This document shows positions 2,979-22,296 of a stretch of DNA of 64,000 bases, one piece after another (the stretch's first letter is position 1; each line of letters opens with the position of its first letter). Under the pieces are notes generated by a model. That model made no database searches. It saw only the letters and a program-made list of their open reading frames with translations, and was not told where the DNA came from. The stretch is from Tamaricihabitans halophyticus (GTDB lineage Bacteria > Actinomycetota > Actinomycetes > Mycobacteriales > Pseudonocardiaceae). A program made the position numbers and the translations under genes. The stretch spans positions 1,116,001 through 1,180,000 of the forward strand of contig NZ_SLXQ01000001.1 in NCBI RefSeq assembly GCF_004340875.1, written 5' to 3'.

Positions 2979-4598
2979 GTGCTGCTCGATGAGCGGCTAC
3001 GCCCGTGGCGCACGGTTGATTTCACCCGCCGCGTGCTTGTGCTCGCCCGCACCGTCACCACGCTGACCCGCTGCCTGGACATCCTGGCGCTGCTGCACGA
3101 CGATCCGCGCCTGCAGGTGTTGTTCAGCTATGACCAGGACCATCCGGCGCGGTTGGGCACCGGTGTCGCGGAGTATCTTGCGGCGCTGGATGCCCCGGTG
3201 ATCAGCTGGGCGCAGGCCCGCGCGCACCGGTTCGATCTGATCATCGCGGCCAGCGAGAACGATCAACTGGCCGAATTGGACGGACCGATTCTGCTGCTGC
3301 CGCACGGGATCGGTTTCCAGAAGTACTACCCGGACACCTCGGTGATCGCGGGCATGGACCCGGCGCGGCTACTCCACGAGGGCAACGTGCTGCCGGCCGC
3401 GATCGCGCTTTCCCACCACGATCAGCTGAACCAGCTGCGCGCCAGCTGTCCGCAAGCTACCGCCGCGGGCACGGTGATCGGCGACCCGGCACTTGACCGG
3501 CTACTCGCTTCGCGCCGGCATACCGGGGTGTTCCGCGATCGGCTCGGTACCGGCGAGCGCAAGCTGGTGGTACTGGCGACAACCTGGGGACCGGATTCAC
3601 TACTGGGTAGTTGGCCGGAACTGCCGGAGCGGCTGCTCGCCGAACTACCTGCCGATGAGTACGCTGTGGCGGCGATTCTGCATCCGGGTATCGCCGCCGC
3701 GCACGGCGGTTGGCAGCTGCGGTCCTGGTTCGCCGGCGCCAGCGCGGCAGGGCTCCTCCTGGCTGGTCCGGACGAGTGGCAGGCGATCCTGTTGGCAGCG
3801 CACTGTGCCATTGTGGATGGTGGCTCGCTCGCGCTGTACGCGGCGGCACTGGATATCCCGCTGTTACTCGGCGCGGAGAACGCGAACACGGTCGCCGGTT
3901 CGCCAATGGCGGAGCTGGCGGCGTGCGCTCCGTGGCTACGCGGCGCCGATCCGCTTGCTGGGCAGCTCGGCGCGGTGGTGCATAACCATCCGGCACGGGC
4001 TTACTGGCCCATCGTCAAGCAGGCGGCCGCGTATGCCGGCGAGTCGGCCCCATTACTTCGCGCGTTGCTTTACCGCCTCGTTGGCCTGTCCGAACCGGAC
4101 ACTCCGGCGGAGTTCGAACCGGTGTCACCGGTGGCCGCCAGCCCGGCCGAGCCGGTGAGCTATCTGGTTGGCGGCGTACCGGGTCCCGAAGGTGTTGCCA
4201 TTACTCGCTTTCCCGCCAACACCCGGAGTTCCACCAGACCACCGGTGGATTACCGGCATCTGACCGCGGCGATGGACCGGGCCGGGCTGGCGGCGCTGGA
4301 GGCAGCCAGCGTGCTGTATCTACCTGTCGATGCGGCGTGGCCGGATCGGGCGCACCGCGCGCTGCGCGAGTGGCCGCACGCGAGGCTGGTCGCGCAGCGC
4401 CGCTCCGATCGGGATTGTGTGGTGTACGCACGGGACGGTACGGAGCTGGTGCTGAGCGCGGCGGGTTCCGGCTTCGACCCGTTGGTGCTTGCCTCGCTCG
4501 GCTACGTGCGATTGGCCGAGCGCGGTGCTGTCCCACCAAGAGATGAGCTTCGGCTTGCGGAGCGCCGGATTCCGGTCAGTGTTCGGCCAGCGCTTTGA
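2979..4598 (+). CDS. Uncharacterised GT-B-like protein (CDP-glycerol transferase-type fold suspected)
   Basis: A 539-residue cytoplasmic protein without signal peptide or membrane segments. I do not recognise a named family. Residues 15-200 look like the N-terminal half of a GT-B glycosyl or glycerophosphotransferase: alternating strands, LLLPHGIGFQKYYP, then SHHDQLNQL. The second half has a nucleotide-site-like segment, HCAIVDGGSLALYAAALDIP (near 270-290), typical of such folds. Residues about 375-539 are less conserved in appearance. Start GTG 2979 is preceded by GGCGG. The 3' end overlaps the convergent STAND gene by 23 bp. Function is inferred only from fold-like motifs. Confidence 0.6.
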   Translation: MLLDERLRPWRTVDFTRRVLVLARTVTTLTRCLDILALLHDDPRLQVLFSYDQDHPARLGTGVAEYLAALDAPVISWAQARAHRFDLIIAASENDQLAELDGPILLLPHGIGFQKYYPDTSVIAGMDPARLLHEGNVLPAAIALSHHDQLNQLRASCPQATAAGTVIGDPALDRLLASRRHTGVFRDRLGTGERKLVVLATTWGPDSLLGSWPELPERLLAELPADEYAVAAILHPGIAAAHGGWQLRSWFAGASAAGLLLAGPDEWQAILLAAHCAIVDGGSLALYAAALDIPLLLGAENANTVAGSPMAELAACAPWLRGADPLAGQLGAVVHNHPARAYWPIVKQAAAYAGESAPLLRALLYRLVGLSEPDTPAEFEPVSPVAASPAEPVSYLVGGVPGPEGVAITRFPANTRSSTRPPVDYRHLTAAMDRAGLAALEAASVLYLPVDAAWPDRAHRALREWPHARLVAQRRSDRDCVVYARDGTELVLSAAGSGFDPLVLASLGYVRLAERGAVPPRDELRLAERRIPVSVRPAL

Positions 4599-6771
4599 GT
4601 TCGGCGAGGTAGCGGTTCAGCCTTGGCAGTCCGGCACGGATCGCCGCTTCGGCGAGTCCGCCCCAGATGCGGCGCGCCTCGGTAAACTGGCCGGCGGCAC
4701 TGGCCAGCCCGGCGGACAGCTCGGCGATTTCCCATTCGTACTGGGTGTTGCCTTCCCGGGCGAGGATGTCGCGGGCGCGGTTCAGTTCGTACTGTCCCCA
4801 GTCGGGTTGGCCGTTCGCGTCGTGGACCTTGGTGCGCACCATGTGGATCCTGGCGAGGTTGCGGCCCGCCGCCTGCGGTAGCCGCTGCGCCTCGTCGAGC
4901 AGTTCCATGGGCGACCCTCGTTGCTCGACAAGGATATTGGCGAGCATCCGCAGGTGAATCACCAGGGCGGCACCGTCCTGGTCGGCCCGGTCGATGCGCA
5001 CTGCCTCGTTGAGCTGTGCCACGGCTTCCCTGAGATCCGGCGAGTCTGGACTGTCCAGTTTGGCGCGGATCTCTTCGTAGCGCCCGTGGAATTCGTGCAT
5101 GGATGCGCGCAACCGGCGGAAGTTGTCTTCGGGCAACTGGCCGAATTCCTGCCAAGCCAGCTCGAGATTGGTTTTCGCCGAGGCTAGTTCCGCGCGCAGG
5201 AAGAACATCCTGGCCTGCATCGCGTAAGCCCTGGCGAGCATCGCGCGATGCTGATCAGCGGGTTCGCCGGCAAGCAACTGTCGCGCCGATTCGAGCACTA
5301 CTTCGTTCAGCGCCTGATACCAACCATACTGCGCATCGTTGAGTACGCTGATCTCCAGCGCGCCGCCCAGCTGGCATACTTCCAGGTGCATACCCAGTTC
5401 CGCCGCCTTGTGCACGGCGTCGAGTAGCACCCAGCGAATCGAGTCCACAGCGGATTCTGCTACCGGCTGGAACCGTTCCGGATAGAGCCGCAGCCGATCC
5501 GGTTTGCCATGGACGTCGGCGGTGACCGCGCGGTCCCGCAGATGCCCGATCACTCGGCGATAAGCATCGGTACATTGCGCTTGGCCCGGCTCATCGAGCG
5601 TCGCGAGCAGCTGCCCGCGTACCGGTTCGTCCACGCGGAACCATGTGGCGCCAGTCCTGTTGACCAGATGTAGATCCCGCAGCTGGCGCAGGGTTCGGCT
5701 GGTGTCTGCCTCGTCCTGGTTGAGCACAATGCCGGCGAGCTGGTGATCGAAGCCGCGTGCACAGCAGCCGGCGAGCAGCGTGATTGCCTGCCGTAGCCGA
5801 GGATCGATCTTTTCCAGCGACTGGTCGATCGCCGCGCCGAGTACCGCGTCGAGATGCGCCAGGCCACGCTCGCGTAGCCGGTTCACCAGCCGGGCCACTG
5901 GTTCGCTGCCGGTCGTGCCGAGCCGCAGCTCCAGGCCGAGGTACTGGATCGGCTCCGGCAGATAGCCGGCCAGATCGAGCAGCTGGGCCACGGCTGCCGG
6001 TTCCCGCTCCAGCATCGCGCGATCGCGGCAGTGATCCGCGAGCAGCAACCAGGCGCCCTCGGCGTCCATCTCCGCCAGCACCACGCACGTATAGTGCAGC
6101 CGTAGCTCGCCGGTCAGCTGGTCGGTGCAGACGAGCAGTTGGTTAGCCGGATGCGCCGGTTCGAACGGGACGATTTCCTCCATTCCGCGCGCGCCACGCA
6201 GGATGATCAGCACGTTGCCGGCGAGCAGGGCCTTACGGAATTGCAGTTTCAGTTCGGCTGACTTCTCGGCGATATCGGTATCGGCTATCCCGAGCTCGCC
6301 GAGCTGTTCCCGGTATACGCCGGGCCAGTTCACCTCCTCCCCGCCGATGCGGTGCTCGTCGAGGTTGATCTCGAGCACCGCTCGGTGGAATCGCTCCCGG
6401 TGCACCTCGGCGTAGTGACGCGTAAACGCCCCTCGTCCGCTGCCGGAACGGCCGCTGATGATCGTGACGTCGCCGTCCGGGGTCTGGGCGAGTGCGGCCA
6501 TGCGGTCCCGCAATGGGTTGGGCGCGGGGAGAGCGCGCGGATGACGGCTGATCGCGCTGCGCGCGGCGAGCACCTTGCCGAGTTCGGCGGCCCATTCGGG
6601 GTCCTGTTCGGCCAGCTCACGCACCTGCTCGGCAAGCGCCTCCTGGTCCACGGAGGGCTCGCCGCGCTTCGCCCGGAACACTTTGACCAGGCCGTCTTTG
6701 CTTTTCGTGTACAGCTCAGTAAGCATGATGCCGGTCACCTGCGTGAGCATGTCCCGCGTTAGTTCATCCAC
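4576..6771 (-). CDS. STAND/NB-ARC-like protein with TPR C-terminus and degenerate P-loop
   Basis: 731 residues. An N-terminal helical segment (1-75) of the type preceding NTPase domains in actinobacterial NLR-like proteins is followed by an NTPase-like core. The Walker A position reads GRSGSGRGAF (about 107-116): Lys is replaced by Arg and the Ser/Thr by Gly. The Walker B strand NVLIILRGARG (about 190-200) lacks the expected acidic pair. A winged-helix-like region follows (about 300-390), then a helical TPR-like region from about 430 to the end. Classical ATP hydrolysis therefore looks unlikely. STAND proteins act as scaffolding or defence switches; no effector domain is visible. It is divergent from no gene directly and overlaps the GT-B-like gene at the 3' end. 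Confidence 0.7.
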   Translation of the reverse strand: MDELTRDMLTQVTGIMLTELYTKSKDGLVKVFRAKRGEPSVDQEALAEQVRELAEQDPEWAAELGKVLAARSAISRHPRALPAPNPLRDRMAALAQTPDGDVTIISGRSGSGRGAFTRHYAEVHRERFHRAVLEINLDEHRIGGEEVNWPGVYREQLGELGIADTDIAEKSAELKLQFRKALLAGNVLIILRGARGMEEIVPFEPAHPANQLLVCTDQLTGELRLHYTCVVLAEMDAEGAWLLLADHCRDRAMLEREPAAVAQLLDLAGYLPEPIQYLGLELRLGTTGSEPVARLVNRLRERGLAHLDAVLGAAIDQSLEKIDPRLRQAITLLAGCCARGFDHQLAGIVLNQDEADTSRTLRQLRDLHLVNRTGATWFRVDEPVRGQLLATLDEPGQAQCTDAYRRVIGHLRDRAVTADVHGKPDRLRLYPERFQPVAESAVDSIRWVLLDAVHKAAELGMHLEVCQLGGALEISVLNDAQYGWYQALNEVVLESARQLLAGEPADQHRAMLARAYAMQARMFFLRAELASAKTNLELAWQEFGQLPEDNFRRLRASMHEFHGRYEEIRAKLDSPDSPDLREAVAQLNEAVRIDRADQDGAALVIHLRMLANILVEQRGSPMELLDEAQRLPQAAGRNLARIHMVRTKVHDANGQPDWGQYELNRARDILAREGNTQYEWEIAELSAGLASAAGQFTEARRIWGGLAEAAIRAGLPRLNRYLAELKALAEH

Positions 6772-6826: not shown

Positions 6827-7999
6827 TCATGCTACCGGGATACGGAAGAGCACGCGGGTGCCCCGGCGGGCCGAGGTGTGCACCTCGCAGTACCCGCCGG
6901 CGGCGGTGGCCCGCTCTTCGAGGTGGGCCAACCCGCGCCGAGTGACACCGCCGGGGATACCGCAGCCGTCGTCGGTCACCTCGAGCGACAACCAGCCATC
7001 CGCGCTACCTATCCGCACCGTGGTGTGTGCCGCACCGGAGTGTCTGACCACATTGGACAGTGATTCGCGGAGCGCGGCACGGGCATGGTCGGCGGACTCC
7101 GCTGGCACGTTCGCCAAGCCGCCGGAGAGCTTGAGGGATGGCGCGTAGCCGAGCAGTTCGCCGGCGACGTCCACCTCGGCATGCGCGGAGGCTGCGAGGT
7201 CGCTTGTGGACGGTTGGCCGCCGGGGTCGGGGTCGCGCAGCGCGCGCACCGTATCGCGGACTTCGGCGATGGTGCCGTCCAGCTGGTCAACGGCGTCGGC
7301 GAGCCGGGCGGAATCCTGCCGGCCGAGCTTGCCGCCGAGTTTTCGGCCGAGCAGATCGAGCTGCACGCCGACCGCGTAGAGCCGCTGCACCAGCACGTCG
7401 TGCAGATCGCGGGCGAGGCGTTCGCGTTCCTCGTAGACCGCGATCCGGCGGCGCGCGGTGGCGCCTTCGGCGAGCACCTGCACCAGCGCTGCCTGGGTGG
7501 CGAAGGCGGTGAGTACTTCCACGCTTGCCGGTTCGAATCCGGCCGCGCCGCGCCTGCGGTACACGGTGAGCGCGCCGAGCCGACGATCCTTGGTGCCGAA
7601 CGGCGCGGCGGCGAACGGCCCGTAGCCACGAAGTTCCTTGGGCACATAGGGAGCGGTGCGCGGATCGGAGGTGAAGTCCTGCACGACCAGCGGCACGCCA
7701 CGGCGGGCCACCCGAGCCGCGGAGGAGCGCGCGGACAGGGTGAGCCCGACCGGATTGCTCGCCGCGTATTCCGGGGCGCCCGCTCCGGCGGTGCCGTGCG
7801 CGGCTTCGACGGTGAGCTGGCCGTCCGCGCCGCTCGCCATCACCAGGCCAAGGTCCGCTTCGGCAAGTTCGGCTGCTTTGCGCACGATCAGTTCGAGTAC
7901 TTCGCCAGGGTCATCCACGGTGAGCGCGGCATTGGCGATCGCGGTGGACGCGCTCAGCGCGCGTGTGGCGAGTGTGGTGTCCATTGTGCTTTCAGGCAT
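6827..7999 (-). CDS. GAF-domain histidine kinase, DevS/DosT- or LuxR-partner type
   Basis: About 390 residues. It contains one GAF domain (about 30-170), then a HisKA_3 dimerisation segment with RLARDLHDVLVQRLYA (phospho-His near 200), then an HATPase domain with N-box ESLSNVVRHS and DDGCGIPGG. This is the architecture of kinases pairing with NarL/DosR regulators. DosS/DosT bear two GAF domains with heme in the first; here only one is seen and heme binding cannot be judged. The ATG at 7999 overlaps the cydDC stop by 8 bp; an ATG at 7984 and an upstream start at 8023 are alternatives. Last gene of the cyd operon; probable partner is the DevR-like regulator at 2178. Confidence 0.87.
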   Translation of the reverse strand: MPESTMDTTLATRALSASTAIANAALTVDDPGEVLELIVRKAAELAEADLGLVMASGADGQLTVEAAHGTAGAGAPEYAASNPVGLTLSARSSAARVARRGVPLVVQDFTSDPRTAPYVPKELRGYGPFAAAPFGTKDRRLGALTVYRRRGAAGFEPASVEVLTAFATQAALVQVLAEGATARRRIAVYEERERLARDLHDVLVQRLYAVGVQLDLLGRKLGGKLGRQDSARLADAVDQLDGTIAEVRDTVRALRDPDPGGQPSTSDLAASAHAEVDVAGELLGYAPSLKLSGGLANVPAESADHARAALRESLSNVVRHSGAAHTTVRIGSADGWLSLEVTDDGCGIPGGVTRRGLAHLEERATAAGGYCEVHTSARRGTRVLFRIPVA

Positions 8000-10900
8000 A
8001 CGCGGGTATGCCGTCCGGGGCAAGGACGACCTGCACCCGGCCGCGGTTGACCTCGATGAGCATCTCGGCTTCGGCTGCTTCCTCGGCGCGATGCGTTACG
8101 TGCAGCACGGTCTTGCCAGCGAACTCGGTGCGCAGCCGGTCCAGTACCGCGCGGGCGGTTGGCCGGTCCAGATGCGCGGTCGGTTCGTCGAGGACCAGCG
8201 CGTCGGCGGTTTTACCGGCAAGTAGTGTGCGGGCGAGGGCGAGCCGGCTGGCTTCGCCGCCGGACAGCGTTGCGCCGCCGGTGCCGACCTGGCGATCTGG
8301 GGACCAGCCGGCGAGCCCGGCCAGCTCCAGTACTTCGGCGAGGTCGGTTTCGCTGGCGTGTGGGTCGGCGAGCTTGAGGTTTTCCCGGATGGTTGTGGAC
8401 ATCAGCTGGGCGTCCTGCGGGCACCAGGCAAAGTGGCCGGGCAGTATGGTGCGACCGTTGTCCGGGGTGAGGAAGCCGAGTAGCAGGGCGAGCAGGGTGG
8501 ATTTGCCTGCGCCGGATGGTCCGACGATGGCCACGTGCGTACCGCGGGGGATATGCAGGGTGACCTCGCGCAACGCGGGGGCGCTCGCGCCCGGCCAGCG
8601 CACGTCCACCTGGTCCAGCCGGATGTCTGCGCTGCTGGTGGCTGGCGCTGGCGGCGGCGGGGTTTCGGTGAGTTCAGCGACGCGGGCGCGGACCGCGCGC
8701 AACTGCTGGTACTGCTGGGCGGCCGGCGGCAGCAGGGCGAGCGTTTCGGCCAGCGCCAGCGGGACGAGTACGGGTAGTGGCGCGAGCACCGGCAGCAGCG
8801 CGCCAGCAGCGACGGCCACGGCCGCCTGGGCCGCGCCGTATACCGCGGCTGCGCCGGTGGCCAGGGTGATCAGGAGTGTGCCGGTGCCCGCGGCGAAGGC
8901 CTGCCGGCGCGCCTGCCTGGCGAGTTCGGCGTCCTCGGCGGCCAACCTGGCGCGCTGCTGCCGGTCGGCGCCGCAGGCGAGCAGTTCGGCTGCCGCGTCC
9001 AGCGAGACGAAGGTGCCGGCGGCAACCCGGATCCGGCCGCGGTCCATGGCGCTGGTTGCTTGCCGTTGCGCCCATACCGCCAGCGCGGGAGCGCCGAGGC
9101 CGGCCACCAGTAAGGCGACCGCCAGCCCGAGCCCGGCGCCGGGTAGCACGATTGCCTGCACCGCGACGGCGGTGAGGCAGACCGCGCCGACCAGGAACGG
9201 TGGGGCAAGCACGCGGGGCACCAGGTCGCGCACCGTGTCCACGTCGGCGGTGAGCCGGCGCAGCCCTTCGCCGCCACGCAGCTGGGTGGTGCGGGCGGGG
9301 CCGAGCCGCACGAGCGCGTCCCATAGTCGCTCGCGTAGCCGACCGGCGATCCGGAACGCGGCATCGTGCACGGCCAGCCGTTCGAGGTAGCGCAGCGCGG
9401 CGCGGGCAAGACCGAAGGTGCGTACCCCGACGACCGCGACGGACAGCGTCAGGATCGGCGGCTGCTCGGAGGCTTTCGCGATCAACCATGCCGAGGTCGC
9501 GGTGAGCGCGATGCCACAGATCAGCGCGGCCGCACCGGCACCGATGCCACCGGCGAGCCGGCGATCGAACAACCCGCGCAACCAGCGGCCGGACGTCCCG
9601 CGATGCGGAGTGCCCGCTGGCGTGGCGCTGCCCCAGTCTGGCGCGGGCGCTGGCGGCTGCTCGGGTGTGGCTTCCGGAGCGCGGTGCGTGGCCAGGACTA
9701 CCGCCGCGCCGGCTGCCGCGGCGCGCTGGATAGCGTCCTGCACCAGCTCCGCGTGCGCCGCATCCAGATGCGCGGTCGGCTCGTCGAGCAGCAGTAGCCA
9801 GGCACCGGTGCGGCAGCGCAGCAGGGCACGGGCGACGGCCAGCCGCTGCCGTTCGCCGGCGGAGAGCTCGCTCACCGGGCGGTCCAGCAGCCCTGCGATA
9901 CCGAGTTCGGTCGCGACGTCGGTCAACAACCGCGGATCACCGGGTTTGCGGTCGGCGAGCGCGAGTTCCAGCTCTGCGCGCGCGGTACCGCCGGCGAACG
10001 CTGGGCGTTGCGGCACCCAGCCAATTCCTTGCCGCCATGTCGACAAATCTATAGTCGATTTATCGATATTGTTCACGGTGATGTTGCCTGAGCTTGGCTG
10101 GACGAAGCCGAGTAGTGCGGCGATGGTGGTGGATTTTCCGCTGCCGCTTGGCGTGTCGAGCAGGTGGATCTCGCCCTTGCTCAGTTCGAAGCTTTCGCCT
10201 GCTGGGGCGGGACCGTCCGCGCGGTCCACGGTGAGTTGCTGGACGCGGAGGGTTTTCCGGCCATGCGGTAGGTCGGTGGTCGGTGGTGGGCCGACGCTGG
10301 TTGGGTTTGCCGCGCCGCGGGCTTGCAGGATTTCGGTGACCCTGCGGACGGCTTCGACGCCGTCTTCGCTGGCGTGGTGTGCGGCGCCGGCGGTGCGCAG
10401 CGGCAGGTAGCACTCGGGGGCGAGGACGAGCGCGGTGAGGCCGATGGCGAGGGTGAGGTCGCCGGTGACCAGTCGCAGTCCGATTCCGACGGCGACCAGT
10501 GCCACGGACAGTGTGGCGGCGAGTTCGAGCACGAAGGCGGAGCTGAACGCGACGCGTAGGTTGGCCATGGTGGTGCGGCGGTACCGTTCGGCTGCTTCCC
10601 TGACGAGCTTGCGTTGCGCGGCCGCGCGCCGGAAGGCGGCGAGTACCGGGAGGCCACGAATGAGTTCGTGCAGGTGCGCGGACAGTCGCTCGGTGTCGTC
10701 GGCGGCGTTGCCTACCCGGTCGGCGGTGTATTTGCCGACGAGGATCGCGAACAGCGGCAGCAGGGGCAGGGTGAGCGCGACGATTCCGGCGGAGAGCGGG
10801 TCGGTGAACAGCAGCACGGCGCCGATGGCTGGCGGCACGATCACACAGGTGACGAGTGCGGGTAGATATTTGGTGAAGTAGGCGTCGAGCGCGTCGAGTC

Positions 10901-11318
10901 CTCGGGTGCACAGCGTGCCGAGTTCGGCTGGTCCGCGGGCGGCGATCCATTCCGGACCGAGTTGGTGTGCGGCGTCCAGCACCTGGCCGCGGAGTTCTTC
11001 TTTCGCGCCGGCGGCTGCGCGGGCGGCTGCGACGTCGACGGCCCAGCCGAGCAGGCCGCGGGCGAGTACCGCACCGGCGGCGATGCCGAGCCTGCTGGCG
11101 TAGTCGGCGCTGCCGGTGGTCACTACTTCGGCGAGCAGCGAGCAGAGTGCGACGGCTTGGACGACGAGGGCAAGGGTGTGCAGCGTGGTGAGCACTCCGA
11201 GCAGGACCAGTGCTCGGCGCGCCGCGCGGGAAAGGTGCGGCAGCGCGCCGAGCGGCCCCCGCCCGGGGCGGGGTTCGGCGGGAAGGTACCGCCCCGGGGA
11301 GTTCTGGGTGCGCCTCAT
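7992..11318 (-). CDS. cydDC: CydDC fused heterodimeric ABC exporter
   Basis: 1108 residues, about the sum of CydD and CydC, so both half-transporters are fused. The first half has six membrane helices (about 30-310) and an ATPase with TPSGSGKSTT and signature LSAGERQ. The second has six helices (about 590-860) and an ATPase with GPSGAGKST and signature LSGGEAS. CydDC exports cysteine/glutathione or transports heme to the periplasmic side and is needed to assemble cytochrome bd. The ATG overlaps the cydB stop in an ATGA, indicating translational coupling. Fused CydDC is usual in many actinomycetes. Confidence 0.95.
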   Translation of the reverse strand: MRRTQNSPGRYLPAEPRPGRGPLGALPHLSRAARRALVLLGVLTTLHTLALVVQAVALCSLLAEVVTTGSADYASRLGIAAGAVLARGLLGWAVDVAAARAAAGAKEELRGQVLDAAHQLGPEWIAARGPAELGTLCTRGLDALDAYFTKYLPALVTCVIVPPAIGAVLLFTDPLSAGIVALTLPLLPLFAILVGKYTADRVGNAADDTERLSAHLHELIRGLPVLAAFRRAAAQRKLVREAAERYRRTTMANLRVAFSSAFVLELAATLSVALVAVGIGLRLVTGDLTLAIGLTALVLAPECYLPLRTAGAAHHASEDGVEAVRRVTEILQARGAANPTSVGPPPTTDLPHGRKTLRVQQLTVDRADGPAPAGESFELSKGEIHLLDTPSGSGKSTTIAALLGFVQPSSGNITVNNIDKSTIDLSTWRQGIGWVPQRPAFAGGTARAELELALADRKPGDPRLLTDVATELGIAGLLDRPVSELSAGERQRLAVARALLRCRTGAWLLLLDEPTAHLDAAHAELVQDAIQRAAAAGAAVVLATHRAPEATPEQPPAPAPDWGSATPAGTPHRGTSGRWLRGLFDRRLAGGIGAGAAALICGIALTATSAWLIAKASEQPPILTLSVAVVGVRTFGLARAALRYLERLAVHDAAFRIAGRLRERLWDALVRLGPARTTQLRGGEGLRRLTADVDTVRDLVPRVLAPPFLVGAVCLTAVAVQAIVLPGAGLGLAVALLVAGLGAPALAVWAQRQATSAMDRGRIRVAAGTFVSLDAAAELLACGADRQQRARLAAEDAELARQARRQAFAAGTGTLLITLATGAAAVYGAAQAAVAVAAGALLPVLAPLPVLVPLALAETLALLPPAAQQYQQLRAVRARVAELTETPPPPAPATSSADIRLDQVDVRWPGASAPALREVTLHIPRGTHVAIVGPSGAGKSTLLALLLGFLTPDNGRTILPGHFAWCPQDAQLMSTTIRENLKLADPHASETDLAEVLELAGLAGWSPDRQVGTGGATLSGGEASRLALARTLLAGKTADALVLDEPTAHLDRPTARAVLDRLRTEFAGKTVLHVTHRAEEAAEAEMLIEVNRGRVQVVLAPDGIPAYA

Positions 11319-12322
11319 GGCACGTGCACCGGCGGGATGTGGCTGGTGCTGATGCGTTTCCGGAATACCCAGTAGGTCCAGCCCTGGTAGACCAGCACCG
11401 CGGGTGCGCCGAAGGCGGCTACCCAGGTCATCACGGTCAGCGTGTAGTCGCCGGATGCGGTGTCGGCGATGGACAGCGAGAAGTTCGGGTCCACCGTGGA
11501 CGGCAGGACGTTCGGGTAGAGCGCGCCGAACAGTGCGACGACGGTGGCGGCGATGGCGACGCCCATTGCGGCGAAGGCTTGGCCTTCGCGGTCGGCGAGC
11601 AGCCGGAGGTAGCCGAGCGCGGCGGCGAGCAGTACGAGGCCGAGCGGTATCCAGGACCAGGCGGAGCCGACCCGTAGCTGTACGAGCAGCAGTAGCGCGA
11701 CGAGTGGGGTGAGCGCGATCGGGGCAATGCGCAGGGTTAGCTGACGTGCGCGGGCGTGTAGTTCGCCGGCGGTTTTCAGGGTGATGAAGATGCCACCGTG
11801 CACAATGGAGAAACCGGCGACGGCGAGCGCGCCGATCAGGGTTTCCCAGCCGAACGCGGCGAAGGCGGAGCCGACCCGGTCACCGGCGGCGTCCAGCGGT
11901 AGTCCGAGCACGTTCCAGGAGAGCAGTAGGCCGATGCCGAGTGCGGGGATGACCGAGCCGGCGAGGATGACGCGGTCCCAGTTGCGTCGCCAGCGATCCG
12001 AGTCCACTTTGCCGCGGTACTCGAAGGCGACGCCTCGACCGATCAGCCCGGCCAGGATGAGCAACAGTGGCAGGTACGCCGAGGAGAACAGTGAGGCGTA
12101 CCACCCTGGGAATGCGGCGAAAGTGGCTCCCGCGGCGACGATCAGCCACACCTCGTTGCCGTCCCACACTGGGCCGATCGTGTTCACCAGCACCCGGCGT
12201 TCGGTGTCCGTGCGGCCCAACCGGTGCAGCAGCATGCCTACACCAAAGTCGAAGCCTTCCAGGAAAAGGTAGCCGAGCCACAGGAAGGCGATAATGCAGA
12301 ACCAGATGGTCGCGAGGTCCAT
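11315..12322 (-). CDS. cydB: Cytochrome bd oxidase subunit II
   Basis: 335 residues, eight to nine membrane helices. The start MDLATIWFCIIAFLWLGY and the stretch FLEGFDFGVG are diagnostic of CydB, as is GPVWDGNEVWL. With CydA it forms the high-affinity quinol oxidase that works at low oxygen. ATG 12322 is chosen: it begins the conserved helix and has GGGGGT upstream, whereas the longer frame adds a non-conserved basic leader. It is separated from cydA by 224 bp, unusually far for cydAB, and overlaps cydDC by 4 bp. Confidence 0.96.
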   Translation of the reverse strand: MDLATIWFCIIAFLWLGYLFLEGFDFGVGMLLHRLGRTDTERRVLVNTIGPVWDGNEVWLIVAAGATFAAFPGWYASLFSSAYLPLLLILAGLIGRGVAFEYRGKVDSDRWRRNWDRVILAGSVIPALGIGLLLSWNVLGLPLDAAGDRVGSAFAAFGWETLIGALAVAGFSIVHGGIFITLKTAGELHARARQLTLRIAPIALTPLVALLLLVQLRVGSAWSWIPLGLVLLAAALGYLRLLADREGQAFAAMGVAIAATVVALFGALYPNVLPSTVDPNFSLSIADTASGDYTLTVMTWVAAFGAPAVLVYQGWTYWVFRKRISTSHIPPVHVP

Positions 12323-12371
12323 TAGCACCGACCCCCGACATCCTGGTGGACAGCGCGGAAAGCGCGACCAC

Positions 12372-12413
12372 TTATCCACAGATTCCCTAGTTGTCCACAA
12401 TTCCTGTGCACAA
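12372..12413 (+). promoter_or_regulatory. DnaA-box-like cluster between cydA and cydB
   Basis: TTATCCACA (12372-12380) and TTGTCCACA (12391-12399) are exact matches to the Escherichia and Streptomyces forms of the DnaA box. TGTGCACAA (12405-12413) is a one-mismatch box on the other strand. The second and third also form an imperfect inverted repeat, so a transcription-factor operator is an alternative reading. Confidence 0.45.
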
Positions 12414-12546
12414 CTCCCCCGCGAGCCCCACAACAACTAGACTGGGCGTGGGGTCGCCCCCCGGAGAGGGTGGGGGATGTGGTGTTGCGCGAGAACGAGG
12501 TTTGCGGTGCCACCACGCTGAGGTTGGTCATCGTGCTGCCTCCAAC

Positions 12547-14046
12547 TCAGTAGGCGAACGTGAGCTTGTCGCTCGGCTCATCGGGATCCTTGGGTTTCTC
12601 CGGCGGCATAACGCCTTCCACTCCAGCTCGGGCGTATCTGCGCAACAGGAAGAACTCCACCACCGCAAGTCCGCCATACAGCGCGGTCAGCACGATCAAC
12701 GAGGTCAGTACCTCGCCGACAGTCAGACCCGAGACGCCTTGCGCGGTGTACATCCACACTCCATCCACACCGGACGGATTCGGGTTGGGCACCACCACGA
12801 ACGGTTGACGCCCCATCTCGGTGAAGATCCAACCGAAGCTGTTCGCCAGGAACGGGGTGGCGATGCCGGCCAGCGCGAGCCGGGGGAACCACTTCGTGCG
12901 CGGCACGCGCCCCTTCCTCGTGACCCACAGCACGAAGGCGGCGGCACCGGCCGCGAGCGCACCGAACCCGATCATCAAGCGGAATCCCCAGTACGTCACC
13001 GGCAAGTTCGGCACATAGTCCACTGGCTGCCCGGCAAGCTCGCCCAACCTCGGATCGTCCGGGTAATGCGTGCCGTACTTCTCGCCGTACTCCTCCCGCA
13101 GATCCTCGATACCCTTCACCTCGGTGGTGAAGTCGTTGTGCGCCAAGAAAGAAAGCAGCGCGGGCACGGTGAGCGATTTGACGCTCTCACAGTCCGGCTG
13201 CGACACGTCGCCGTAGGCGAACACCGAGAACGAGGCCGGTTGCTCGGTGTGACACAACGCCTCGGCCGCGGCCATCTTCATCGGCTGCTGCTCGAACATC
13301 AGCTTGCCCTGGAAATCGCCGCTGATCGCCACCCCAAGGAAAGCGACCAAACCAACCCAGCCACCGAGCCGCAGCGAACCCCGCCACACCTCACGGTCCG
13401 CCGGATCGCCGGTGTTGTCCCGGTGCTTACGCCATAGATGCCAGGCCGCGATGCCCACCAGGAATGCGCCGCCGACCGCGAACGCGCCCGCGATCGCATG
13501 CGGGAAAGCCGCCAGCACCGTGCTGTTGCCGAACACCGCCCAGATCGACGTCAGCCGGGGCTGACCATCCACGATTTCCGCGCCGACCGGATGTTGCATC
13601 CACGAGTTAGCGGCCAGAATGAAGTACGCCGAGGCGATCGTGGCCAGCGAGAATGCCCAGATGCACGCCAGATGCACCCGTTTGGACAATCGATCCCAGC
13701 CGAAGATCCACAATCCGAGGAAAGTGGATTCCACGAAAAACGCGACCAGCCCTTCCATTGCCAGTGGCGCACCGAACACGTCCCCGACGAACCGCGAATA
13801 CGCGCTCCAGGACATGCCGAACTGGAATTCCTGAACAATCCCGGTCACCACGCCCATGGCAAAGTTGACCAGCATCAACTTTCCCCAGAACTTGGTCATC
13901 CGGAGATACTTCAGCTTCCCGGTTCGCACCCACGCCGTCTGCATTCCGGCGACGAGCACGCCGAGGCCGATGGTCAGCGGGACCATCAGAAAGTGGTAGA
14001 CGGTGGTGATGCCGAACTGCCACCGCGCGAGATCGAGCACGTCCAC
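12547..14046 (-). CDS. cydA: Cytochrome bd oxidase subunit I
   Basis: 499 residues with nine membrane helices. It starts MDVLDLARWQFGITTVYH, where H18 is the expected heme b595 ligand; a His in FPHAIAGAF (near 185) and a Met late in the protein would bind heme b558. The Q-loop motif appears as SGDFQGKLMFEQQPMKMAAAE. The Q loop is of the short type. The GTG start at 14046 has no clear ribosome site, and a second in-frame GTG lies two codons in. A DosR-type palindrome lies 61 bp upstream, suggesting induction by the DevR-like regulator under low oxygen. Confidence 0.96.
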   Translation of the reverse strand: MDVLDLARWQFGITTVYHFLMVPLTIGLGVLVAGMQTAWVRTGKLKYLRMTKFWGKLMLVNFAMGVVTGIVQEFQFGMSWSAYSRFVGDVFGAPLAMEGLVAFFVESTFLGLWIFGWDRLSKRVHLACIWAFSLATIASAYFILAANSWMQHPVGAEIVDGQPRLTSIWAVFGNSTVLAAFPHAIAGAFAVGGAFLVGIAAWHLWRKHRDNTGDPADREVWRGSLRLGGWVGLVAFLGVAISGDFQGKLMFEQQPMKMAAAEALCHTEQPASFSVFAYGDVSQPDCESVKSLTVPALLSFLAHNDFTTEVKGIEDLREEYGEKYGTHYPDDPRLGELAGQPVDYVPNLPVTYWGFRLMIGFGALAAGAAAFVLWVTRKGRVPRTKWFPRLALAGIATPFLANSFGWIFTEMGRQPFVVVPNPNPSGVDGVWMYTAQGVSGLTVGEVLTSLIVLTALYGGLAVVEFFLLRRYARAGVEGVMPPEKPKDPDEPSDKLTFAY

Positions 14047-14106
14047 GTAATCGATCTTGCGTGGCCGCCGGGGTGCTCCGGTAGGTACCGCCGTCCCGAC
14101 CCCGAT

Positions 14107-14120
14107 GGGACCTAAGTCCC
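14107..14120 (-). promoter_or_regulatory. DosR/DevR-type box upstream of cydA
   Basis: GGGACCTAAGTCCC: perfect 5-bp inverted arms with a 4-bp centre. It matches the core of the mycobacterial DosR consensus (GGGAC, TWWA, GTCCC) at 13 of 14 positions. It is intergenic, between the IclR gene stop (14125) and the cydA start (14046), in an activator-compatible position. Confidence 0.75.
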
Positions 14121-14124
14121 GCCT

Positions 14125-14775
14125 TCAGCGCAGGGTGGCGGCGACCGAAGTAGCCGCACGTACCAACTGCGGCCCCACACTTTCCGCGTGCAGCTCGGCG
14201 AAGCTGAGCATGCCGACACAGGCACGCACCCCTGGCACGCCACGCACCGGCGCGGCCAGCTCGGCGGTGCCCACCTCCAGCTCACCGCGGGCCGCCACCC
14301 ACGGTGGACCGTCCTCGGCGAGCTGGAGCGCCCGCCCGGTCGCGCCACGATCGATCGGCTGCCGGCTGCCCACCCGATACCCGACGTGCAGCACGGTCCA
14401 CGATGGCTCAACAACCGCGACCACCTGCGACTCCGCGCCCTCGGCGAGGCTCAGAAAAGCCGTCGCGCCCACCGACTCGGCGAGCTCCCGCAAGATCGGC
14501 AACACCGCGACCCGCAGTTGCGGCAGCACTCTGCCGGCGAGCACGAGCAGGCCGGCCCCGAGTCGCACCCGGGTACCGTCCCGCCACAACAGCCCGCGCT
14601 CCACCAACGGCACCAGCAGCCGGTACACGGCCGCCCGGCTCACCCCGACCGCCGTGGCCAGCTCGCTGATCCCCACCGAATCGGTCTCGGCGTCCGCAAC
14701 GGCCTGCAGCAGCGCCAAACCGCGCTGCAGGGTCAGCGAGCTCTCCCCGGTCGCGGCCGACCTACCCGTCGGCAC
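14125..14775 (-). CDS. IclR-family transcriptional regulator
   Basis: 216 residues. The N-terminal winged helix (about 12-75) includes GISELATAVGVSRAAVYRLLVPLVERGLL. A GAF-like IclR effector domain follows (about 85-210). It is slightly shorter than the usual 250 residues. It lies 15 bp downstream of the unknown protein at 14791 in the same direction and probably forms a two-gene unit with it. The effector is unknown. Confidence 0.9.
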   Translation of the reverse strand: MPTGRSAATGESSLTLQRGLALLQAVADAETDSVGISELATAVGVSRAAVYRLLVPLVERGLLWRDGTRVRLGAGLLVLAGRVLPQLRVAVLPILRELAESVGATAFLSLAEGAESQVVAVVEPSWTVLHVGYRVGSRQPIDRGATGRALQLAEDGPPWVAARGELEVGTAELAAPVRGVPGVRACVGMLSFAELHAESVGPQLVRAATSVAATLR

Positions 14776-19716: not shown

Positions 19717-20258
19717 GCAGTACCGAAGGCCACGTTGAACCTGTCGCACCAGAGAACCGCGCTGCGCATATCTCCGATCCGCGCGCCCTCTGGCAACGCA
19801 TAGTTCTGGTCGCCGTGCGTCGCCTTCATCTTGCCAAGCGGAATGTAGCGGCCGTCGTCATAACTGCCCCATTCACCGCCCGACTCCTGATCACTGAGCC
19901 ATACGTGCACATCCGGGCCATCCGAGGTGGCGAGCCCCTCCAGCCGCAGCACCCGCGTCCCGTCGGGAAGTTCCAGTAACCGGGCGGTGCCGCTCGTGGC
20001 GTGCTCGCCGTCCTCGAACTGGCCGCGCGCCAACTCGTGTGGTCGCGCAGGGGTGTTTGTCGGCTGCGCCGTGCCTGATGACTGGGTTACCCCTGGCGAC
20101 GAGGTAGATTCTGGCGCCGCGCCTGGCAGCTCCTCGTGCACGGTACTGCTGGTGAACGCCTTCCACGGCTGAAACGCCCATAGCCCGCCAGCCAATAGCA
20201 CCGCGACCAGTGCGGTAATTGTCCAGGTCCACGGCGAGCGGACGATCTTGCTGGGCAC
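19701..20258 (-). CDS. Membrane-anchored DM13-domain protein
   Basis: 185 residues. A single membrane segment near the N-terminus (about 9-29) is followed by a Ser/Thr/Pro-rich linker and a C-terminal DM13 domain (about 80-185): [37 protein letters not shown], and [10 protein letters not shown] with a Cys in VLWCDRF. DM13 is an extracytoplasmic fold proposed to have redox or electron-transfer roles. GTG 20258 is chosen because AGGAGG lies 5 nt upstream. Divergent from arginine deiminase, with 130 bp between. Confidence 0.88.
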
Positions 20259-20388
20259 GGTTACCTCCTGGTGTTGGCGGCCAACGCAACCATTGGAACG
20301 AAGTAACCGGATAAAACGGTACCAACCTGCCAATTACCGAACTCTTACGTCGCCACGGCTGGCCCGCGACCAAGTAAGCTGCGACGTC

Positions 20389-21636
20389 GTGTACACCGAT
20401 TCGGCGAGTACCGCCCCGCCAACGAAGCCAAGGGTGGACAGTGAAGTCGGCAAGCTGCGCACGGTGCTGCTGCACCGGCCAGGCGCGGAACTGAAACGGC
20501 TTACTCCGCGCAATAACGACAAACTGCTCTTCGACGGCGTGCCGTGGGTGGACCGCGCGCAAGCGGAGCACGACGCCTTCGCCGAGGTGCTGCGTGGCCG
20601 TGACGTGGAAGTGCTGCTGCTCGCGGACGTCCTACGCGAAGCGCTCGACGACTCCCGCGCGCACAGCGCCGGTGTCACCACCGCGGTGGACGAGCGCAAG
20701 CTTGGCACCCAGCTCGCCGACGCGCTGCGCTCCTATCTATCCACAGTGGATCCCGCCGGTCTTGCGGATGTGCTCACCGCGGGGCTCACCTTCGAGGAAC
20801 TTCCGGTCGCCGAGGGCGCTTCGCTGGTACGCCGGATGCACCACGCGCACGATTTCGCCATCGATCCACTGCCCAATCTGCTGTTCACCAGGGACTCCTC
20901 GGCGTGGATCGCTGATCGTGTCGCGATCGCCTCGCTTTCGATGCCGGCACGGCGCAGGGAAACCAGCGTGCTGGACCTGATTTACGCGTATCACCCGCGA
21001 TTTCGCGCGAGCGCCCGCGCCTACGGCGCGCATTCCGCACCCGTCGAGGGTGGTGACGTGCTGCTGCTCGCGCCCGGGGTACTTGCCATTGGCGTCGGCG
21101 AGCGCACCACTCCGGCCGGTGCCGAATCACTCGCTCGCTCGGCCTTTGCCGAAGGGCTCGCGCATACCGTGCTAGCCGTGCCGATCGCGCAGGATCGCGC
21201 GACCATGCACCTGGACACGGTGTGCACGATGGTCGATAGCGACGCGGTGGTGATGTACCCGGCGATCCGCGATTCGCTAACCGCCTTCACACTGCGACCG
21301 CAGGATGACACCGTCGCGGTAAGCGGGCCAGCGCCGTTCCTTGAAGCCGCGGCGAACGCGATGGGAATCGACCGGCTCCGGGTGATCGATACCGGGCTTG
21401 ACCCGGTCACCGCCGAACGCGAGCAATGGGATGACGGGAACAACACGCTGGCGCTGGCGCCCGGTGTGGTGGTCGCGTACGAGCGGAACGCGGAAACCAA
21501 CGCACGACTGGCACACGCCGGTATCGAGGTACTGCCGATCGCCGGTTCCGAACTCGGTTCCGGGCGTGGCGGGCCGCGCTGTATGTCCTGCCCGATCATC
21601 AGGGACGGCGACCAATTCACCGCGACAAGCGATTAG
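20389..21636 (+). CDS. arcA: Arginine deiminase
   Basis: 415 residues, normal for ArcA. It hydrolyses arginine to citrulline and ammonia. Seen: [17 protein letters not shown] at the start, [12 protein letters not shown] (substrate Asp), [11 protein letters not shown] (catalytic His) and the C-terminal [10 protein letters not shown] with the nucleophilic Cys near 398. The frame extends upstream to 20248, but GTG 20389 gives the usual N-terminus; no strong ribosome site is visible. No arcB, arcC or arcD neighbour, so a full ADI pathway is not encoded here. Confidence 0.93.
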
Positions 21637-21747: not shown

Positions 21748-22296
21748 ATGTCGACGAGCACGAAGAAACCGCATTCCAAGTTCACCGAGTTGCTGCACAC
21801 CCAGGTGCGCAACGAGTTCAACGCCTCACAGCAGTACATCGCGCTTGCCGTGTGGTTCGACAAGGAAGACCTGCCCCAGCTTGCCAAGTTCTTCTACGCG
21901 CAAGCCCTGGAAGAGCGCAATCACGCAATGATCATCGTCCAGTACCTGATGGACAATGATCAGCCAGTGAACATCCCGTCGATCGACGAGGTGCGCAATG
22001 ACTTCAGCAAGGCAGCGGAACTTGTCGAGCTGGCACTGAAGCAGGAAAAGGAGGTCACCTCCGATATCACCACGCTCGCCAAGGCCGCGCGGGACGAGGA
22101 TGACTACCAGGGCGAGCAGTTCATGCAATGGTTCCTGAAGGAACAGGTTGAGGAAGTGTCCTCAATGTCCACTTTGCTGAACGTGATCAAGCGCTCGAAT
22201 GGCAATCTGTTCGACGTCGAGGCCCATCTGGTTCGCGAAGGCGGCGGCGAGGGCGCCGACCCGACCATGCCGCGCGTCGCTGGCGGCGCGGTGTAA
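21748..22296 (+). CDS. bfrB: Ferritin
   Basis: 182 residues, four-helix bundle. The ferroxidase ligands are visible: Glu in RNEFNASQQY, EERNHA (Glu and His), Glu/Gln in FLKEQVEE. It lacks the heme-binding Met pattern of bacterioferritin, so it is a non-heme ferritin of the BfrB type. It oxidises and stores iron in a 24-mer. No ribosome site precedes ATG 21748, and TATCTT lies just upstream, so a leaderless mRNA is possible. Two iron boxes 70-115 bp upstream suggest IdeR control. Confidence 0.93.
   Translation: MSTSTKKPHSKFTELLHTQVRNEFNASQQYIALAVWFDKEDLPQLAKFFYAQALEERNHAMIIVQYLMDNDQPVNIPSIDEVRNDFSKAAELVELALKQEKEVTSDITTLAKAARDEDDYQGEQFMQWFLKEQVEEVSSMSTLLNVIKRSNGNLFDVEAHLVREGGGEGADPTMPRVAGGAV

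Follow-up and report, generated by a model that had tools for sequence, protein, structure and literature searches.

Tandem DevR-type boxes before the cytochrome bd operon of Pseudonocardiaceae and their probable reader, a DevR paralogue

The cytochrome bd operon cydABDC of Tamaricihabitans halophyticus is preceded by two tandem DevR-type boxes, and the boxes, their spacing, the promoter layout around them and their association with particular genes recur across the family Pseudonocardiaceae. These features can be read directly from the DNA. We consider it quite probable that a dedicated two-component system of the DevR type uses these boxes as its operator and activates cydABDC; its regulator would be a paralogue of the dormancy regulator DevR.

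The analysis started from a window of 64,000 nucleotides, the whole stretch of DNA presented above. Sixty-one Pseudonocardiaceae loci were compared: the window, 46 loci (L004-L049) that we take from their genus names to belong to this family, and 14 from further genomes assigned to the same family. The search for CydA relatives also gave 34 loci of other actinobacteria, mostly Micrococcales. A second genome set comprised 90 genomes with a CydA match, our own included, and loci from 59 others (60 loci) were compared.

Boxes and promoter layout before cydA

The distal, strong box 1 (GGGACTTAGGTCCC; 14107-14120, minus strand) lies at -74 to -61 from the cydA GTG, between the stop of an IclR-like gene and the GTG at 14046 on the minus strand. 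The earlier note had placed a 14-mer matching the DosR core at 13 of 14 positions directly upstream of the cytochrome bd operon, and both statements hold, the position exactly so. The plus-strand reading, GGGACCTAAGTCCC, has one mismatch to the core, which we take to be GGGACTTNNGNCCC; on the cydA strand the palindrome, 61-74 bp before cydA, matches at 14 of 14 positions.

The earlier note had described a single box, which is present, but the promoter holds two or three, and the second, at 14084-14097, had been overlooked. This proximal, degenerate box 2 (GGGACGGCGGTACC, minus strand) is offset from box 1 by 23 bp in the downstream direction, adjoins the presumed -35 region and ends at -38 from the GTG. 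The offset between the boxes is 22-24 bp, about two helical turns, in 59 of the 61 family loci. The best match to box 2 has at most two mismatches in 34 of 61 loci, compared with 1.0% of random places, and one to three mismatches in 50 of 61, compared with 8.3% of random places at three or fewer; the other 11 have four or five. A -10-like hexamer, CAAGAT (NANNNT; 14054-14059, minus strand), is found at -13 to -8 from the GTG, and 60 of the 61 promoters have NANNNT here or at most 2 bp away, as opposed to 9.4% of random places. At least two sites are therefore packed together with the proximal one at -35, the position of the latter being deduced from the -10-like element. Because the hexamer sits at -13 to -8, transcription of cydA probably starts at or beside the GTG, and a leaderless mRNA is the simplest reading; an SD-like GGAG precedes cydA in six of the 61 promoters.

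The same layout emerges from an information profile of the 48 loci with a box near -72, in which box 1, box 2 (centred near -43) and NANNNT at -13 to -8 stand out, together with a pyrimidine (C or T) at -1 and a GTG that never varies. In the other 13 loci the strongest box lies further upstream, at -94 to -96 in 12 and at -127 in L034. All 12 of the former have a degenerate box near -72 with one to three mismatches, and all 12 have another near -49 with one to four mismatches, as the best of seven registers and without a baseline. A third box is found in a Saccharopolyspora-like group.

The earlier note had proposed scanning the genome for the box, and the motif alone proved not to be enriched. 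Three places in the 6.39 Mb genome fit the core pattern GGGACYTNNGNCCC, in which position 6 is Y (four matches counting strands), against eight in the reversed control, and exact GGGACN4GTCCC also occurs at three places, with a reversed control no lower. We therefore rejected genome-wide enrichment as evidence, because the counts are at or near the reversed control. Since the motif alone is at chance level genome-wide, position and conservation carry the case.

Both are strict. Exactly one RGGACN4GTCCY is found 71-127 bp before cydA in all 61 family loci, and the 1.11 Mb of these loci contain only six further matches. By comparison, exact GGGACN4GTCCC was met in 82 of 20,000 random 140-bp draws from L004-L049 and the window, some of these draws being the promoters themselves. 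Position 6 of the box is most commonly C (49 of 61), with T in seven. One of the six extra matches is a further promoter box (L010), two look like chance (L028 and L036), and three (L012, L048 and L186) precede a cydDC gene that is separated from cydB, by 573, 169 and 1301 bp, respectively, to the start codon chosen by script; the GTG used here lies 12, 12 and 66 bp further. Before each of these detached cydDC genes the entire module is repeated, with box 1 at -73, -74 and -72, box 2 at 23 bp, a -10-like element resembling TACCGT or TACGGT, and the GTG. A second module was not found in six of the nine loci in which the cydB-cydDC gap exceeds 90 bp.

No box was found before the kinase gene or the devR gene in the Pseudonocardiaceae loci scanned, and autoregulation through a box at either gene was rejected on this ground. 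A stricter box, RGGACYWWSGTCCY, occurs at one to four places in seven of nine family genomes and at eight and ten places in the other two (G083 and G076), counts close to the reversed control. The cydA site is among these places in all nine genomes, and those of G083 also include the cydDC copy. These counts suggest a system with a very small number of targets; further ones may exist if the regulator accepts weaker sites, beyond the reach of a scan with RGGACYWWSGTCCY. Elsewhere in the window an arginine deiminase gene (20248-21636, plus strand, PF02274) is followed by a ferritin-like gene (21748-22296, plus strand, PF00210), and the 14-mer with up to three mismatches was not found near them.

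The palindrome might instead be a chance or structural element, for example a terminator, with cydA under an unrelated factor such as Rex, CRP, FNR or the adjacent IclR protein. Rex acts on cyd genes in Streptomyces. It reportedly acts there on aerobic metabolism genes (PMC5355995), and CRP activates cydAB in M. smegmatis in the available text of PMC7739888, which speaks for such factors. The box, however, keeps a fixed distance from cydA and also from detached cydDC, and no run of T follows it. Within 250 bp before cydA in the 61 loci, no conserved site was seen for Rex, CRP, FNR or RegX3-like patterns, the best matches having 3-8 mismatches for Rex, 2-5 for CRP and 2-5 for FNR as raw counts without a chance baseline. 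Eleven of the 46 loci L004-L049, one of them with only 1 kb of upstream DNA, gave no IclR homologue, and all 11 have the box. Control by an unrelated factor is accordingly barely credible. In the window the IclR-family gene (14125-14775, minus strand) is directly upstream of cydA and runs in the same direction; as a regulator it was rejected, because many relatives have the gene kilobases away from cydA or gave no match to it in the locus.

The operon, its kinase and the cyd-linked regulator

By Pfam and NCBIfam the operon contains cydA, cydB, cydD and cydC, all on the minus strand: cydA (subunit I, 12547-14046, GTG start, PF01654), cydB (subunit II, 11315-12322, PF02322 and TIGR00203) and cydDC, a fused CydD-CydC ABC exporter (7992-11318, TIGR02857 and TIGR02868). 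Within the longer ORF 11315-12436 the start of cydB was set at Met 39, the point from which relatives are usually similar. The observation that the operon ends in a GAF histidine kinase is borne out: a GAF-HisKA_3-HATPase kinase (6827-7984, minus strand; ATG at residue 14 of ORF 6827-8023) follows 7 bp after cydDC as the last gene.

This kinase is not DevS, as the earlier note had called it. It has a single GAF domain, compared with two in the kinase of the dormancy locus on contig C11 of the same genome, and it gave no match to the haem GAF of DevS/DosT; neither the haem histidine nor the two GAF domains of those sensors are present. We aligned 42 cyd kinases, the window included; 11 of 53 extracted kinases fell outside 370-410 aa and were dropped, and four more were not extracted. 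The phospho-His column is kept in all 42. The haem-ligating histidine in GAF-A of DevS/DosT is, we assume, that of the HPPM segment; at this column all 42 cyd kinases have Leu, whereas DosT, DevS and the C11 DevS have His. Haem sensing by the cyd kinase was rejected on this column. Some histidine occurs in the GAF region of 31 of the 42 kinases, at no column conserved in 60%. The ATPase domain of the window kinase is closest to DosT/DosS. A structure model of the kinase (pLDDT 78.8, pTM 0.49) gave phytochrome and LOV kinases and the ATPase domains of DesK and DosS among the best 50 Foldseek rows, and neither the model nor these rows indicated a GAF ligand. With a non-haem GAF, direct sensing of O2 through haem is unlikely, which leaves a respiratory or redox-linked ligand.

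The cyd-linked response regulator is encoded at 2178-2825 on the plus strand and keeps the Asp and the DNA-reading residues of DevR. It had been described as a DevR-like regulator 4 kb away, which is correct for the distance from the end of the kinase gene (4.0 kb) but not from the box, which is about 11.3 kb off. Between kinase and devR are two large genes, 2979-4598 (plus strand) and 4576-6771 (minus strand), which overlap tail to tail. Neither has a Pfam or NCBIfam match, and relatives of the two were found only in L020, Amycolatopsis antarctica, among 80 loci (46 + 34). The product of 4576-6771 contains, by eye, a P-loop-like GRSGSGRG.

The regulator is 52.5% identical to M. tuberculosis DevR over 202 aa, and its score to 3c3w is 215.7 bits compared with 296.8 for a protein encoded on contig C11. 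The C11 gene belongs to the dormancy locus of the genome (L128:7939-12460), with the order DevS-USP-USP-DevR (USP genes by Pfam Usp); its DevS contains two GAF domains and gave matches to 2vzw and 2w3d, both haem GAF structures. The window regulator is not the protein closest to M. tuberculosis DevR, and its neighbours are genes other than USP or a two-GAF DevS. To judge from these comparisons, the window regulator is a DevR paralogue and the C11 protein the DevR orthologue. What had been taken for a DevR/DevS pair beside cyd is thus a paralogous pair with a different sensor, and the true DevS-DevR pair is on contig C11.

Regulators of the cyd type form one group of 46 rows from 42 genomes, with an SH-aLRT of 96 in a quick tree and a FastTree support of 0.62; in the quick tree f1_L257, f1_L259 and out_L308 are on very long branches, and five regulator rows were lost from the alignment. 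The equivalents of D54, K179, K182 and N183 are present in 46 of 46 rows, which marks these proteins as DevR/DosR-type regulators; we take K179, K182 and N183 to be the DNA-reading residues of DevR. The group differs from dormancy DevR in having Thr-Ser-Val in place of Ser-Arg-Leu (Thr in all 46 rows, Ser in 42 and Val in 40).

Box, regulator and kinase occur together throughout the family. The regulator gene lies inside the locus, on the strand opposite to cyd, in 33 of the 46 loci L004-L049, and each of the remaining 13 genomes encodes a 73-78% identical regulator elsewhere. Two regulator rows marked with a stop (L313 and L320) are intact frames of 215 and 208 aa. In all 15 further family genomes, our own included, the regulator is on the cydA contig. 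The kinase is present in 57 of 61 loci, and the other four genomes have it too; its start is no more than 100 bp from the cydDC stop in 48 of the 57, and its distance from cydDC reaches 2.1 kb within loci and about 20 kb in G121. In three genomes, G121 (L010), G122 (L015) and G125 (L033), the kinase gene adjoins the regulator gene on the opposite strand, and the two are less than 300 bp apart or overlap by less than that. An insertion has left the G121 pair ~20 kb past cydA on the same contig, and the G125 pair is on a contig other than that of cydA. The G122 pair is also on another contig, which is uninformative, as the cydA contig stops 3.5 kb past cydA.

Since the DNA-reading residues are identical in the cyd-type and dormancy groups, the dormancy DevR of the same genome could bind the boxes as well. 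If the C11 protein, fired by the haem DevS, were the main reader, cyd would belong to the ordinary DevR regulon and the cyd-linked pair would do some other job. We think this unlikely. Exact GGGACN4GTCCC was not found in 20 kb around the C11 DevS-USP-USP-DevR locus, and exact boxes are near chance level genome-wide, unlike what a many-gene dormancy regulon would show. The best argument for the cyd-linked regulator as box reader comes from G104 and G037 (each given as 99% complete), which have only a cyd-type DevR at E ≤ 1e-55, with no dormancy-type DevR at this cut-off, and keep the box. The boxes could conceivably also integrate two inputs, O2/NO through the dormancy pair and the state of the respiratory chain through the cyd-linked pair, if both DevR proteins act on them. 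The shared reading residues, a palindrome that fits both proteins and the two kinases with different GAF domains agree with such convergence, yet G104 and G037 keep the same promoter without a second DevR at the cut-off, and we regard it as distinctly improbable.

Boxes before cydA outside the family

In 46 loci of other families, RGGACN4GTCCY occurs within 150 bp before cydA in eight, compared with 0.37% of random stretches, and with at most one mismatch in 18, compared with 2.5%. Among the 34 other-actinobacteria loci a one-mismatch box was found in two (L050 and L060). Some of the cydA boxes outside the family stand in genomes with DevR relatives of another type than the cyd one, which favours the dormancy DevR as reader. 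Three genomes outside the family (G032, G002 and G018) have the box although no DevR match in them reached E ≤ 1e-48, but in G002 and G018 a divergent DevR-like gene lies beside cyd. A box with at most one mismatch and a DevR-like gene nearby tend to occur together (5 both, 10 box only, 1 gene only, 24 neither; Fisher p=0.02), in a table of related genomes that are not independent and with G042 left out (8,991 bp downstream, against a cut-off of 9,000).

Five loci with a box or near box, L217 (G002), L230 (G018), L218, L228 and L229, share the layout of the family: a more distantly related DevR-like regulator is encoded on the opposite strand, 6.1-6.6 kb past the cydA start. The box with at most one mismatch is absent from all six loci of family f8, presumably the Mycobacteriaceae, as the DevR rows of G067, G007 and G034 fall beside M. 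tuberculosis DevR. Half-conserved palindromes, GGGTCATTGGTCCC and AGGCCATTGGTCCC, occupy a fixed place before cydA in L206, L208 and L231 (f15) and in L190-L192 (f16), and are perhaps the site of a diverged reader.

Proposed mechanism, known systems and meaning

In the mechanism that we propose, the kinase encoded by the last gene of the operon would phosphorylate the DevR-family regulator, the gene of which lies close by on the opposite strand. Phosphorylated dimers would bind box 1 and, cooperatively, box 2, and the third box in the Saccharopolyspora-like group, and would touch RNA polymerase at the -35 region to activate a leaderless cydABDC-HK transcript. With the kinase inside the operon, activation should raise the level of the kinase itself. 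The identity of the binding protein, activation as opposed to repression, the phosphotransfer and the signal are what we infer here. Several observations speak against this mechanism: C is commoner than T at position 6 of the box, box 2 is poor in 11 loci, six of the nine wide cydB-cydDC gaps hold no second module, neither the kinase gene nor devR has a box, the kinase gene is sometimes far from cydDC, and G032, G002 and G018 have the box with no close DevR match. A broader reading, held tentatively and at rather less than even confidence, is that this is a near single-target DevR-paralogue system throughout the family, that its kinase, which has a non-haem GAF and shares a transcript with the oxidase, responds to the condition of the respiratory chain and not to O2 itself, and that its leaderless tandem-box module was copied before cydDC when the operon split.

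Direct DevR control of cytochrome bd had been put forward in the earlier note as a distinct circuit, and this was probably right in kind and wrong in part. The box in 61 of 61 loci, the module before detached cydDC in three loci, and a regulator and kinase in every family genome examined all point to such a circuit; the sensor is not DevS and the regulator not the orthologous DevR.

The regulon of M. tuberculosis DevR comprises about 50 genes. Like DevR/DosR of that species, the cyd-linked protein is a NarL-type regulator with the same DNA-reading residues and palindromic GGGAC..GTCCC boxes, and, as in the DevR-DevS/DosT system, there appear to be paired P/S sites next to -35 and there is a GAF-HisKA_3 kinase. 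It differs in belonging to a paralogous clade, in having a kinase with one GAF without the haem His, encoded in the cyd operon, and in having apparently one target operon and no USP neighbours. Phosphorylated full-length M. tuberculosis DevR is described as binding cooperatively to a primary and a secondary site, and the DevR promoters covered in the available text have tandem sites, the start-proximal one overlapping -35 (PMC3029386).

The remark that mycobacterial cydA is mainly under other regulators agrees with one study of M. smegmatis, in the accessible portion of which CRP is an activator, a devR mutant reportedly shows normal cydA induction (on data not shown in the source), and the DevR regulon of 49 genes does not include cydAB (PMC7739888). 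The CRP-cydAB case shares the oxidase genes and a respiration-impaired setting with ours; the regulator differs. Like the system described here, OsdR-OsdK of S. coelicolor belongs to the DevR family; its site is a 16-nt palindrome and its stress targets are many. OsdR differs in its reported consensus, AGGGCCGATCGGCCCT, and its broad regulon, and the word 'cytochrome' is absent from the main text of that report, as far as it is available (PMC5069765). The genes listed for S. lividans as following OsdR expression include cydA and cydB, and direct targeting is not indicated in the part of the source at hand; this rise of cydA with the OsdR regulon favours the dormancy DevR as reader (PMC6302529). 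PolS-PolR of Microlunatus phosphovorus is likewise a DevSR-like pair recruited to another metabolic job. PolR, said to be 76% identical to DevR, differs from the cyd-linked regulator in being reported on GTTCAC direct repeats before phosphate/polyphosphate genes, according to the available sections (PMC6754071), so homology alone does not fix specificity. The full-text literature matches listed, with most subscription journals outside their coverage, include no DevR-type regulator acting directly on Pseudonocardiaceae cyd genes.

The high-affinity, oxygen-using cytochrome bd of these bacteria would thus have its own switch, which is not the control known from mycobacteria. In tuberculosis bacteria DevR has the role of dormancy regulator, and in M. 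smegmatis, where this was tested, bd is not among the DevR targets. Because the box precedes cydA in several other actinobacterial families, the mycobacterial arrangement, and not the one described here, may be the exception. Across a family of antibiotic-producing soil actinomycetes, a duplicate DevR system appears to have been assigned to the bd oxidase. This would be a clean natural case of a global hypoxia regulator splitting into a one-operon switch, and it would offer a small, testable promoter for asking which signal a haem-free GAF kinase reads.
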